Shown here: piece by piece, positions 13,750 to 16,716 of the stretch
Position numbering within the stretch: position 1 is the first letter of the stretch
How the letters are laid out: each line of letters opens with the position of its first letter
Assembly (NCBI GenBank): GCA_035547835.1
Contig: DASZTW010000005.1
Span: 124,001 to 188,000, forward strand
Reading direction: 5' to 3'
Source: Acidimicrobiales bacterium
GTDB lineage: Bacteria; Actinomycetota; Acidimicrobiia; Acidimicrobiales; Iamiaceae
Length of the DNA: 64,000 bases
Program-made: the position numbers and the translations under genes
Notes under the pieces: model-generated
Told to the model about the DNA's origin: nothing
The model's database searches: none
Seen by the model: only the letters and a program-made list of their open reading frames with translations

Positions 13750-14646
13750 TCACCAGGGACGGTCACCGATGATCGTCGCCCGCTCCATGACGCGTCGCTG
13801 GGGTGCGTAGTCCGACACCGCGTAGTGCTGCGTGCACCGGTTGTCCCAGAACGCGATGGAGTCCGCTTCCCAACGAAAGCGGCACTGGAACTCGGGGGTG
13901 CGAGCCTGGGCTGTGAGGTGGTCGAGCAACGCCCGGCTGGCGTCGGGCTCCATGCCCACCACATGGCTGGTGAACACGTCGTTGACGTACAGGATCTTGC
14001 GACCGGTCTGCGGATGCGTGCGCACGATCGGGTGCTCGGCGGGCGGGTATTTCGCCTGCATCTCGGCGAGCTTGTCCGGTTCGAGCAGCATGCCGAACGT
14101 GCCGGAGAAGTCGTGCACGGCGGTGCGGCCCTCGATGGCGGCCTTGGTCTCCTCGTCGAGGCACTCGTACGCCATGTACATGTCGGCCCAGAGCGTGTCG
14201 CCGCCGAGCGCGGCCGGCGTGACGCAGCGCAGGATCGAGCCGAGCGATGGTTCGAGCCGCCACGACACGTCGCTGTGCCAGATGTTCTCGTAGCCCGTCT
14301 CCTTCGGGCCCTTGTCGAAGCGGACGACCTCGGGTACCTCGCCCTCCCGCAAGAAGGGATGCACTTCGAGCTCGCCCCAGTTGCGAGCGAAGTCGCGGTG
14401 CTGCGCGCCGCTGACGTGCTGGTCACGGAAGAACAGCACCTTCCATTCGAGCAGCGCCCGGTCGAGCTCGGCGAACAGCTCGGGGCTGAGCGGCTGGCCG
14501 ACGTCGACCCCGTACACTTCGGCGCCGATCGTGGGGCCGAGCGGGCGCAGGTCGAAGCGCTCGTAGGGCTTGTCGTCGGCACCAGGGCCGAGCCGGTGGA
14601 GCTGATACTCGCCGGCACGCAGGCCGGGTCGGATCGTGAACGTCAC
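13750..14646 (-). CDS. TauD/TfdA-family Fe(II)/2-oxoglutarate dioxygenase
   Basis: A 298-residue dioxygenase. The 2-His-1-Asp iron site is visible: HSD in NIWHSDVSWR and the distal His in NRCTQHYAVSDY, followed by the arginine-containing PQRR segment that would bind 2-oxoglutarate. Family members hydroxylate taurine, alkyl sulfates or aryloxy acids; the substrate here is not known. The GTG start at 14646 overlaps the TetR stop (GTGA) and has a GGAGG site upstream, so it is coupled to the TetR gene and probably controlled by it. Confidence 0.88.
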   Translation of the reverse strand: MTFTIRPGLRAGEYQLHRLGPGADDKPYERFDLRPLGPTIGAEVYGVDVGQPLSPELFAELDRALLEWKVLFFRDQHVSGAQHRDFARNWGELEVHPFLREGEVPEVVRFDKGPKETGYENIWHSDVSWRLEPSLGSILRCVTPAALGGDTLWADMYMAYECLDEETKAAIEGRTAVHDFSGTFGMLLEPDKLAEMQAKYPPAEHPIVRTHPQTGRKILYVNDVFTSHVVGMEPDASRALLDHLTAQARTPEFQCRFRWEADSIAFWDNRCTQHYAVSDYAPQRRVMERATIIGDRPW

Positions 14647-15431
14647 GTGGGGACCTCCAAAGTGGCGACGAGGTTGAGGGTGGCGTCGGATGGTGCGGCG
14701 CACAGCAGCCCGGCGACGGCGTCGACGAGGCCGCTCGCCAGCCAGGCGGGCGAGCCGGCGTCGGGGGTGCCGGCGTCACGGGCCCGCTCGTAGTCGGCCA
14801 CCGCCATGACGGTGAGCCGCACGGCCAGCTCGATGCGCTGGTCGCGAACCGGCGGTGGCAAGTGGTCGAGCAGGGCGGACACCTCGACCATCCAGCGCCG
14901 CATCCCGCTCAGCTCGGGGCGATCGAGCTCGGTGAGACGGCCCGACGCCACCGGGTCGGCCAGGAAGGCGGCGAGAAACCGGCCGTACCAGGTGGATCCG
15001 GGTGCCTCGTCGAGCGACTCGGCCAACGGCACGACGAACGCCGCCGCCAACGCCCGTACCGGATCGTTCACCCCCGACCCCGACCCCGCCGCCGACCCCG
15101 CCGCCGACCCCGCCGCCGCCCCCGACCGAGATCCTGCGATTCGTGCAGAAGTGGTTGCTGTGTCGCCACTTCCGCACGAAGAGTTGGCATCCGACGGCGT
15201 TGCATCGTCGAGCAGGGCCTCGCGACGGGCGTTCACCGCGGTCATGCGGAGCTCGAAGATGGCGTCGACGAGTGCGGCCTTGGAGCCGAAGTGGTAGATC
15301 GCCGCCGAGTTGTTCCTGGCGCCGGCCATCGTCCCCGCCTCCCGCAACGACAGCGCGGCGACACCTCGCTCGCCGACCAGTCGCTCCGCCGCTTCCAAGA
15401 TCCGTCGCCGCGTCGCCTCTCCCCGGGCCAT
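14643..15431 (-). CDS. TetR-family regulator with a repeat-derived linker
   Basis: A 262-residue regulator. Residues 1-~65 form the TetR DNA-binding domain (RRRILEAAERLVGERGVAAL, then the helix-turn-helix ending IYHFGSKAALVDAIF). A ligand-binding domain follows from about residue 125. Between them, residues ~80-122 are low-complexity (Ser/Gly/Ala) and encoded by a palindromic element (15140-15180) plus three perfect 12-bp repeats (15082-15117). The ATG at 15431 sits 6 nt after a good -10 box, so the mRNA is probably leaderless. It is coupled to the downstream dioxygenase gene and divergent from an acyl-CoA dehydrogenase, its likely targets (inference). Confidence 0.88.
   Translation of the reverse strand: MARGEATRRRILEAAERLVGERGVAALSLREAGTMAGARNNSAAIYHFGSKAALVDAIFELRMTAVNARREALLDDATPSDANSSCGSGDTATTSARIAGSRSGAAAGSAAGSAAGSGSGVNDPVRALAAAFVVPLAESLDEAPGSTWYGRFLAAFLADPVASGRLTELDRPELSGMRRWMVEVSALLDHLPPPVRDQRIELAVRLTVMAVADYERARDAGTPDAGSPAWLASGLVDAVAGLLCAAPSDATLNLVATLEVPT
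15082..15117. repeat. Three perfect tandem 12-bp repeats inside the TetR gene
   Basis: GACCCCGCCGCC is repeated exactly three times and flanked by degenerate copies. On the coding (minus) strand each unit encodes Gly-Ser-Ala-Ala, widening the interdomain linker without changing frame. Confidence 0.9.
15140..15180. repeat. Palindromic repeat family B, copy 1 (inside the TetR gene)
   Basis: Arms TTCGTGCAGAAGTGG (15140-15154) and CCACTTCCGCACGAA (15166-15180) match in 14 of 15 pairs around an 11-nt loop. A second copy lies 350 bp away at 15492-15532. This copy is translated in frame as part of the TetR linker. Confidence 0.9.
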
Positions 15432-15437
15432 GCCGGC

Positions 15438-15466
15438 ACTCTAAAGCAACTGACTTACTTTGTCGA
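15438..15466 (-). promoter_or_regulatory. tetR promoter with overlapping palindromic operator
   Basis: Minus-strand -35 TCGACA (15461-15466) and -10 TAGAGT (15438-15443) are separated by exactly 17 bp, and the -10 lies 6 nt from the ATG at 15431. The spacer is an imperfect palindrome, AAAGCAACTGACTTACTTT (15443-15461, 14 of 18 symmetric positions). A regulator bound there would block RNA polymerase, so TetR autorepression is likely (inference). Confidence 0.65.
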
Positions 15467-15491
15467 CCCTTCGCCGAGGTCTTCCCGACTC

Positions 15492-15532
15492 TTCGTGCAG
15501 AAGTGGCACTACAGCCGCCGCTTCTGCACGAA
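15492..15532. repeat. Palindromic repeat family B, copy 2 (intergenic)
   Basis: Arms TTCGTGCAGAAGTGGC (15492-15507) and GCCGCTTCTGCACGAA (15517-15532) match in 15 of 16 pairs around a 9-nt loop. It lies in the divergent region between the TetR gene and the acyl-CoA dehydrogenase, about 35 bp before the latter's start. Confidence 0.9.
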
Positions 15533-15554
15533 TCGCACGGTTGTGGCCGCGCGG

Positions 15555-15567: not shown

Positions 15568-16716
15568 ATGGAGCGGACCCTGTACGACGACGAGCACGAG
15601 ATGTTCCGGGGCAGCTTCCGGGCCTTCCTCGACAAGGAGGTCGTGCCCAACTTCGAGCGGTGGGAGCACGAAGGGATCGTGCCCCGCGAGCTGTTCGCGA
15701 CGGCTGGCGCGGCCGGCTTTCTCGGCATGGCGATACCCGAGGAGTTCGGCGGCGGCGGGGTCGACGACTTCCGGTACAACGCGGTGATCGGCGAGGAAGT
15801 GCAGCGAGCCGGCGTCGGCGGCTGCGGGCTCGGCCTCACCCTCCACACCGACATCTGCACGCCCTACTTCTTGCACCTCACCAACGACGACCAGAAGGCC
15901 CGCTGGTTGCCGGGCATCGCGTCGGGCGAGCTCATCACAGCCGTGGCGATGACCGAGCCGGGCATCGGCTCGGACCTGGCGGGCATGGCGACGACGGCGG
16001 TGCGCGACGGCGACCACTACATCGTCAACGGCTCAAAGACGTTCATCTCCAACGGCATCAACGCCGACGTGGTGATCTGCGCGGTGAAGACCGACCCGAC
16101 ACAGCGCCACAAGGGCATGAGCCTTCTGGTGATCGAGCGCGCCATGGAAGGGTTCGAGCGCGGCCGCAACCTCGACAAAGTCGGGCTGAAGAGCCAGGAC
16201 ACGGCCGAGTTGTTCTTCCACGACGTCCATGTGCCGGTGGTGAACCGGCTCGGCGACGAGGGCACCGGCTTCCTCCAGCTCGTGCACAACCTGCCGCAGG
16301 AACGGCTTTCGATCGCCAACGCCGGCGTAGCCGCAGCGCGCGCCGCGTTCGACTGGACGCTCGCGTACGTCAAGGAGCGCACCGCGTTCGGCCAACCGAT
16401 CGGATCGTTCCAGAACTCCCGGTTCGCGCTGGCGGAGATGAAGACCGAGATCGAGATCGGCCAGTCGCACATCGACCGCTGCATCGCCGCGCACCTGCGT
16501 GGCGAGCTCACGGCCGACGAGGCCGCCGCCGCGAAGTGGTGGTGCACCGAGCTGCAAAAGCGGGTGGTCGACCGCTGCGTGCAGCTTCACGGCGGCTACG
16601 GCTACATGCTCGAGTACCCCGTGGCGCGGGCGTACACCGATGCCCGGATCACCACCATCTACGGCGGCACCACCGAGATCATGAAGGAGATCGTCGGGCG
16701 CTCGCTCGGCGTGTGA
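15568..16716 (+). CDS. Acyl-CoA dehydrogenase
   Basis: A 382-residue FAD enzyme that oxidises acyl-CoA to enoyl-CoA. Family signatures are AVAMTEPGIGSDLAGM (flavin-binding segment), RTAFGQPIGSFQNSRFALAEM and the C-terminal QLHGGYGYMLEYPVARAYTDARITTIYGGTTEIMKEI region with the catalytic-Glu motif. Length is normal. It is closest in style to long-chain acyl-CoA dehydrogenases, but chain length cannot be read from sequence. The start is fixed by the leaderless -10 box 7 nt upstream. Divergent from tetR, with a shared regulatory region. Confidence 0.92.
   Translation: MERTLYDDEHEMFRGSFRAFLDKEVVPNFERWEHEGIVPRELFATAGAAGFLGMAIPEEFGGGGVDDFRYNAVIGEEVQRAGVGGCGLGLTLHTDICTPYFLHLTNDDQKARWLPGIASGELITAVAMTEPGIGSDLAGMATTAVRDGDHYIVNGSKTFISNGINADVVICAVKTDPTQRHKGMSLLVIERAMEGFERGRNLDKVGLKSQDTAELFFHDVHVPVVNRLGDEGTGFLQLVHNLPQERLSIANAGVAAARAAFDWTLAYVKERTAFGQPIGSFQNSRFALAEMKTEIEIGQSHIDRCIAAHLRGELTADEAAAAKWWCTELQKRVVDRCVQLHGGYGYMLEYPVARAYTDARITTIYGGTTEIMKEIVGRSLGV

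Follow-up and report, generated by a model that had tools for sequence, protein, structure and literature searches.

In-frame RPEs (Rickettsia palindromic elements) are the classical case of a palindromic repeat that is translated. They occur in genes that probably stay functional, to which they give a hydrophilic insert, and intragenic REPs have been described in flexible linkers, as dimers and as partners separated by inserted DNA (Di Nocera 2013, PMC3733652; its text makes no mention of Actinobacteria). For REPINs, a common spacing in P. fluorescens SBW25 is 71 bp (Bertels and Rainey 2011, PMC3116915). Here we analysed two palindromes in and beside a TetR gene of the window (the whole stretch of 64,000 nucleotides under analysis), together with the repeat family to which they belong. 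They probably represent a dispersed, REP-like repeat without tag that has its intact form only in its own genome and is tolerated in flexible loops.

Facing half-elements at a TetR gene

According to the initial annotation, two 41-bp palindromes lie about 350 bp apart, one of them intergenic and the other inside a TetR gene. We could confirm both positions and placements: the palindrome core of the copy within the TetR gene, half-element L, spans 15140-15180 and that of the intergenic half-element R spans 15492-15532 (41 bp each, 352 bp apart from start to start). Both cores fold much better than shuffled sequences (z -4.7 and -5.5, respectively; 0 of 200 shuffles equal). The arm motif is enriched in the window, with 11 matches at up to two mismatches versus 2.9 expected, a count that was reached by none of 100 shuffles. 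The TetR copy has one arm, TTCGTGCGGAAG, that is an imperfect match.

When copies were compared across the genome, the full repeat unit turned out to exceed the palindrome and to measure about 61 bp. It is composed of an outer flank CCANAATCCTGCGA, a 15-bp stem with a loop of about 11 nt and, at the opposite end, an inner flank GAGTYG. Half-element L (outer flank, 41-bp palindrome and inner flank; 15126..15186, + strand, also located by nhmmer) and half-element R (15486..15546, - strand) are inverted repeats whose inner sides face each other, with 85% identity over 53 bp. The covariance model CM R1, built from the repeat family with both window copies among its sequences, scored them with 76.9 bits (L) and 72.0 bits (R) and gave no other significant match in the window.

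The gene containing half-element L (14643..15431, - strand) encodes a TetR-family regulator of 262 aa (P0001), with a TetR_N domain at residues 11-58 (E 1e-6) and a weak TetR_C_30 match at residues 131-241, below the cut-off of that model. It adjoins a TauD/TfdA-type dioxygenase gene on the same strand (13750..14646) and is divergent from an acyl-CoA dehydrogenase gene (15568..16716, + strand), both named from their sequences. Half-element R occupies the intergenic region between the TetR and acyl-CoA dehydrogenase genes and stops 21 bp upstream of the likely start codon of the latter. Such a divergent promoter region is the usual place for a TetR operator palindrome, and with two copies 352 bp apart, TetR or another regulator could use the intergenic copy as main operator and the intragenic one as auxiliary operator. 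Yet at 53-61 bp, with asymmetric flanks and an occurrence in doublets, the unit exceeds the length of a TetR operator. The repeat furthermore occupies about 17 loci beside unrelated genes, many of them between convergent genes or at gene ends, and genomes without it still have syntenic TetR-TauD orthologues. We therefore consider a role as operators or other regulatory sites highly improbable. Half-element R presumably has no dedicated role.

The repeat family in its own genome

The genome from which the window comes (G000; 3.7 Mb in 22 contigs, 96.7% complete) was searched by pattern, BLAST and covariance model, which revealed about 20 copies at about 17 loci, all with the same outer and inner flanks. 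The palindromes belong to a dispersed family with numerous other copies in this genome, which supports the initial annotation on this point. Compact inverted doublets with about 72 bp between hairpin starts were found at C1:75374/75446, C1:143978/144050, C5:294121/294194 and C18:73177/73248, and a fifth, damaged one at C8:37825/37907. Two wide pairs show the same facing orientation: the window pair, at 352 bp, and a pair at 654 bp that encloses a dtd gene, which from its sequence reads as a D-aminoacyl-tRNA deacylase. All other copies are either single halves or lone hairpins that carry an outer flank at each side. Units lie within 1 kb of each other more often than expected by chance (three neighbouring pairs among 19 units; 0 of 20,000 simulations). 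Within one 3-kb stretch (G000:C1:142352-145103, L057), several units are found, namely the wide pair around the dtd-like gene, one compact doublet and, at 145082, what may be a fragment of an outer end. Most copies have, on both strands of the palindrome, one frame free of stop codons, which reads S-C-x-S-G-x-x-A-x-x-S-A-R. Target-site duplications were not obvious at the compact elements, and an Rfam search of the region gave no significant match, the miRNA names scoring below gathering. No covariation was seen within the family, whose copies resemble each other through common descent and often have the mid-stem disrupted on one side.

The halves of the two wide pairs are more alike (identities of 0.80 and 0.83) than those of the compact pairs (0.61-0.69). 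Since the 5' part of the TetR gene is enclosed by 53-bp inverted repeats in facing orientation, and a second such case surrounds a complete dtd-like gene, an inverted pair might be thought to bound a segment, here the TetR promoter and the DNA-binding part, that moves or inverts as a whole in the manner of a phase switch or a captured cassette. We find this very unlikely. Inversion would break the TetR gene, and its DNA-binding and ligand-binding parts jointly align with syntenic orthologues. As both domains occur together in the orthologues, the segment between the repeats is no capture of foreign origin, and it was the repeats that came to surround it. The higher likeness would also result if adjacent halves persisted only when they differ, in line with the published view that like halves at close range fold into large hairpins, which are removed (heterodimer argument, PMC3733652). 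Unlike halves in compact doublets and like halves in wide pairs fit such a removal, in what are small numbers.

The family resembles REPs and BIMEs in several respects. It consists of palindromic repeats in tens of copies, which are dispersed (about 17 loci) and often arranged as dimers of opposite orientation (five compact doublets, one of them damaged), with spacers of similar length and variable sequence. Many copies lie at 3' ends or between convergent genes and some are in frame in linkers or loops. In contrast to REPs, the hairpin foot carries no GTAG or CGTC tag and the stem is longer (15 bp). In 13 of the 15 half-elements, the 10 bp next to the hairpin contain neither motif on either strand, and the other two are the halves of one doublet, with GACG/CGTC in its variable spacer.

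Inverted doublets of hairpin units at a spacing of about 71-72 bp are also reminiscent of REPINs and their RAYTs, and copies inside genes and at 3' ends are in keeping with the locations reported for REPs (PMC3733652). The repeat might accordingly be a REPIN mobilised by a HUH (Y1) transposase whose RAYT gene was missed in an assembly gap or lost. However, the Y1 transposase model (PF01797, Y1_Tnp) had no match in G000, a result that is not absolute for a 96.7%-complete assembly, in a search whose positive controls matched. Even at E 1, Y1_Tnp was unmatched in the five relatives with weak matches to our repeat model as well, several of which have incomplete assemblies. In addition to the missing tag, the singles of G000 are not more decayed than its doublets, unlike in REPINs: mean covariance-model scores were 65.7 bits for doublet halves and 72.7 bits for wide or single ones (p = 0.09 in the direction opposite to that of REPINs, small numbers), and doublets are hence not better conserved. 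We judge the REPIN explanation improbable.

MITEs of the NEMIS/Correia type offer a further comparison, as the compact doublet is a noncoding element of about 146 bp with imperfect terminal inverted repeats of about 60 bp. But a non-exhaustive search revealed no insertion sequence that shares these ends and could be a partner, and the halves also occur singly. The untagged REP-like repeat is presumably mobile and would have spread by copying or transposition, probably via a single-stranded hairpin, as proposed for REPs.

Repeats read as protein sequence

An open reading frame runs through half-element L, which on the - strand reads N-S-S-C-G-S-G-D-T-A-T-T-S-A-R-I-A-G-S. We aligned the TetR regulator with 18 homologues on both sides of the insert; the section from R70 to A127 comprises 58 aa here versus 15-22 aa in the homologues. 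The insert itself covers residues 80-121 or so (about 42 aa; approximately 15069..15194, - strand, from the alignment and pLDDT), with 36-43 extra residues relative to the 18 homologues. In four of the genomes examined for this (G019, G025, G028 and G010), the homologue adjoins a TauD-type gene that is 52-57% identical to the TauD neighbour in the window, which argues that these homologues are orthologues. Judged by this comparison of sequences, the long linker is the derived state and the orthologues display the ancestral one. Syntenic orthologues thus lack the insert, and the same linker was not found without the palindrome.

The in-frame copy does lengthen the linker between the two domains, as the initial annotation held, but the palindrome unit supplies only about 21 of about 40 extra residues. 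Most of the others, amounting to roughly half of the insert, come from an imperfect 12-bp tandem repeat (GCCGCCGACCCC type; 15069..15132, repeat families D1/D2) at the outer edge of half-element L, a GC-rich array that is translated as part of RSGAAAGSAAGSAAGSGSG. Short tandem repeats at the outer edge were also seen in two other copies (C1:65418 and C19:158931). With the 18-sequence alignment as input, AlphaFold2 (mean pLDDT 85) predicted a helix at residues 51-77, disorder at 93-119 (pLDDT <50) and a helix at 124-141, and the insert is accordingly modelled as a disordered loop between two confident helices.

We propose that the two half-elements came to flank the initial third of an ancestral TetR gene, and that half-element L would have entered in frame, in the loop downstream of the long post-HTH helix. 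With a palindrome open in one frame, the copy could be translated as a hydrophilic disordered spacer and be tolerated. The adjacent 12-bp array would then have lengthened the spacer further. For TetR function, the insert is probably near-neutral.

An acyl-CoA synthetase gene reads in frame through a second half-element (C12:54270-54333; L062:5271-5334), using the same palindrome frame as in TetR. The element sits in a variable loop ahead of LFTSGSTG, the phosphate-binding motif. This loop measures 48 aa here versus 23-58 aa in orthologues (48-53% identity), a range that includes it, so that the protein shows no net lengthening; the element may have replaced loop sequence instead. With in-frame copies at these two places, the suggestion that such palindromes are tolerated in coding DNA was borne out. 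Three more genes, by their sequences an ABC transporter, a PAP2-like and an Lnt-like gene (G000:C1:65457, 75396 and 142391; L119, L058 and L057), end inside elements, from which they take their last residues (AIRAEVAE, AIRAELAE and LPIRAQVAK) and the stop codon. The C-terminus supplied by the element follows the pattern IRA(E/Q)(V/L)A(E/K). Of the other copies, many are situated at 3' ends or between convergent genes, according to gene calls based on codon usage, in agreement with descriptions of REPs. Two gene starts called inside hairpins (C15:106415 and C1:144053) were judged to be start mis-calls.

The TetR copy, inserted in frame within an otherwise conserved gene, resembles RPEs. In contrast to these, there are only two internal coding copies in total here, presumably in a different bacterial group. 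The repeat works like an intragenic REP or RPE, which is a likeness in behaviour and not an assignment to either class.

Similar hairpins in other genomes

The intact core pattern was present in 0 of 84,980 species genomes, the own genome excluded. A single match in viral contigs was rejected as a chance match inside apparent coding DNA. Class-wide, 5 of 296 genomes contained the exact core, no more than with the reversed control, so it is not a class-wide motif. The model of the own half-elements gave weak matches in 5 of 98 relatives, whose hairpins have different outer arms, and after extension with these hairpins it matched in 12 of the 397 genomes of the order (own included), in some of them with many copies. 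Regarding the further copies expected in related genomes, the intact core was thus confined to G000, but hairpins of similar build do occur in a few relatives. A BLAST match in G056 and a model match in G025 were weak and not counted as relatives of the family. A literature search for the repeat sequence or for palindromes in Acidimicrobiia yielded nothing relevant.

Doublets were found in G021 as well, at a spacing of 70-71 bp, and G001 has one doublet at 73 bp. Since doublet spacing lies outside the models, it provides independent support for the kinship of these two families with that of G000. Between families, both partners had changed in 8 base pairs (0 of 500 shuffles), a covariation signal that is weakened because the hairpins were picked by a structure-based model or a palindromic pattern. 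The remaining outside hairpins could be independent families caught by a structure-biased search. Multi-copy near-perfect palindromes with other outer arms were observed in the distant order members G445 (L171, L187 and L191), G089 (L172, L183, L188 and L192) and G019 (L173 and L184), some of them near contig ends. In the Propionibacteriales MAG Dino_bin33, the core lies inside longer arms on at least 10 contigs; there, a long near-perfect hairpin, TCGCGCCGAGATTGCAGAAGTGGTCGAT...ATCGACCACTTCTGCAATCTCGGCGCGA, is repeated (L195-L207) and possibly represents a related family. It is conceivable, though not likely, that part of the Actinobacteria harbours an undescribed class of REP-like hairpins that share the core (A/G)GAAGTGG...CCACTTC(T/C), have outer arms that differ by lineage and stay paired through compensatory changes, form doublets at a conserved spacing of about 70-73 bp and are spread by a non-Y1 enzyme.

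REP-like repeats, including intragenic copies, are already known as a class from other bacteria, and the G000 family is a new example. It is a REP-like repeat that carries no tag and whose genome yielded no RAYT, which leads one to ask by what means such repeats move where Y1 transposases are lacking. It also presents a regulator whose inter-domain loop appears to have been lengthened by a palindromic repeat, with the ancestral state visible in orthologues. The TetR case is a clean natural test of palindromic repeats becoming protein sequence.
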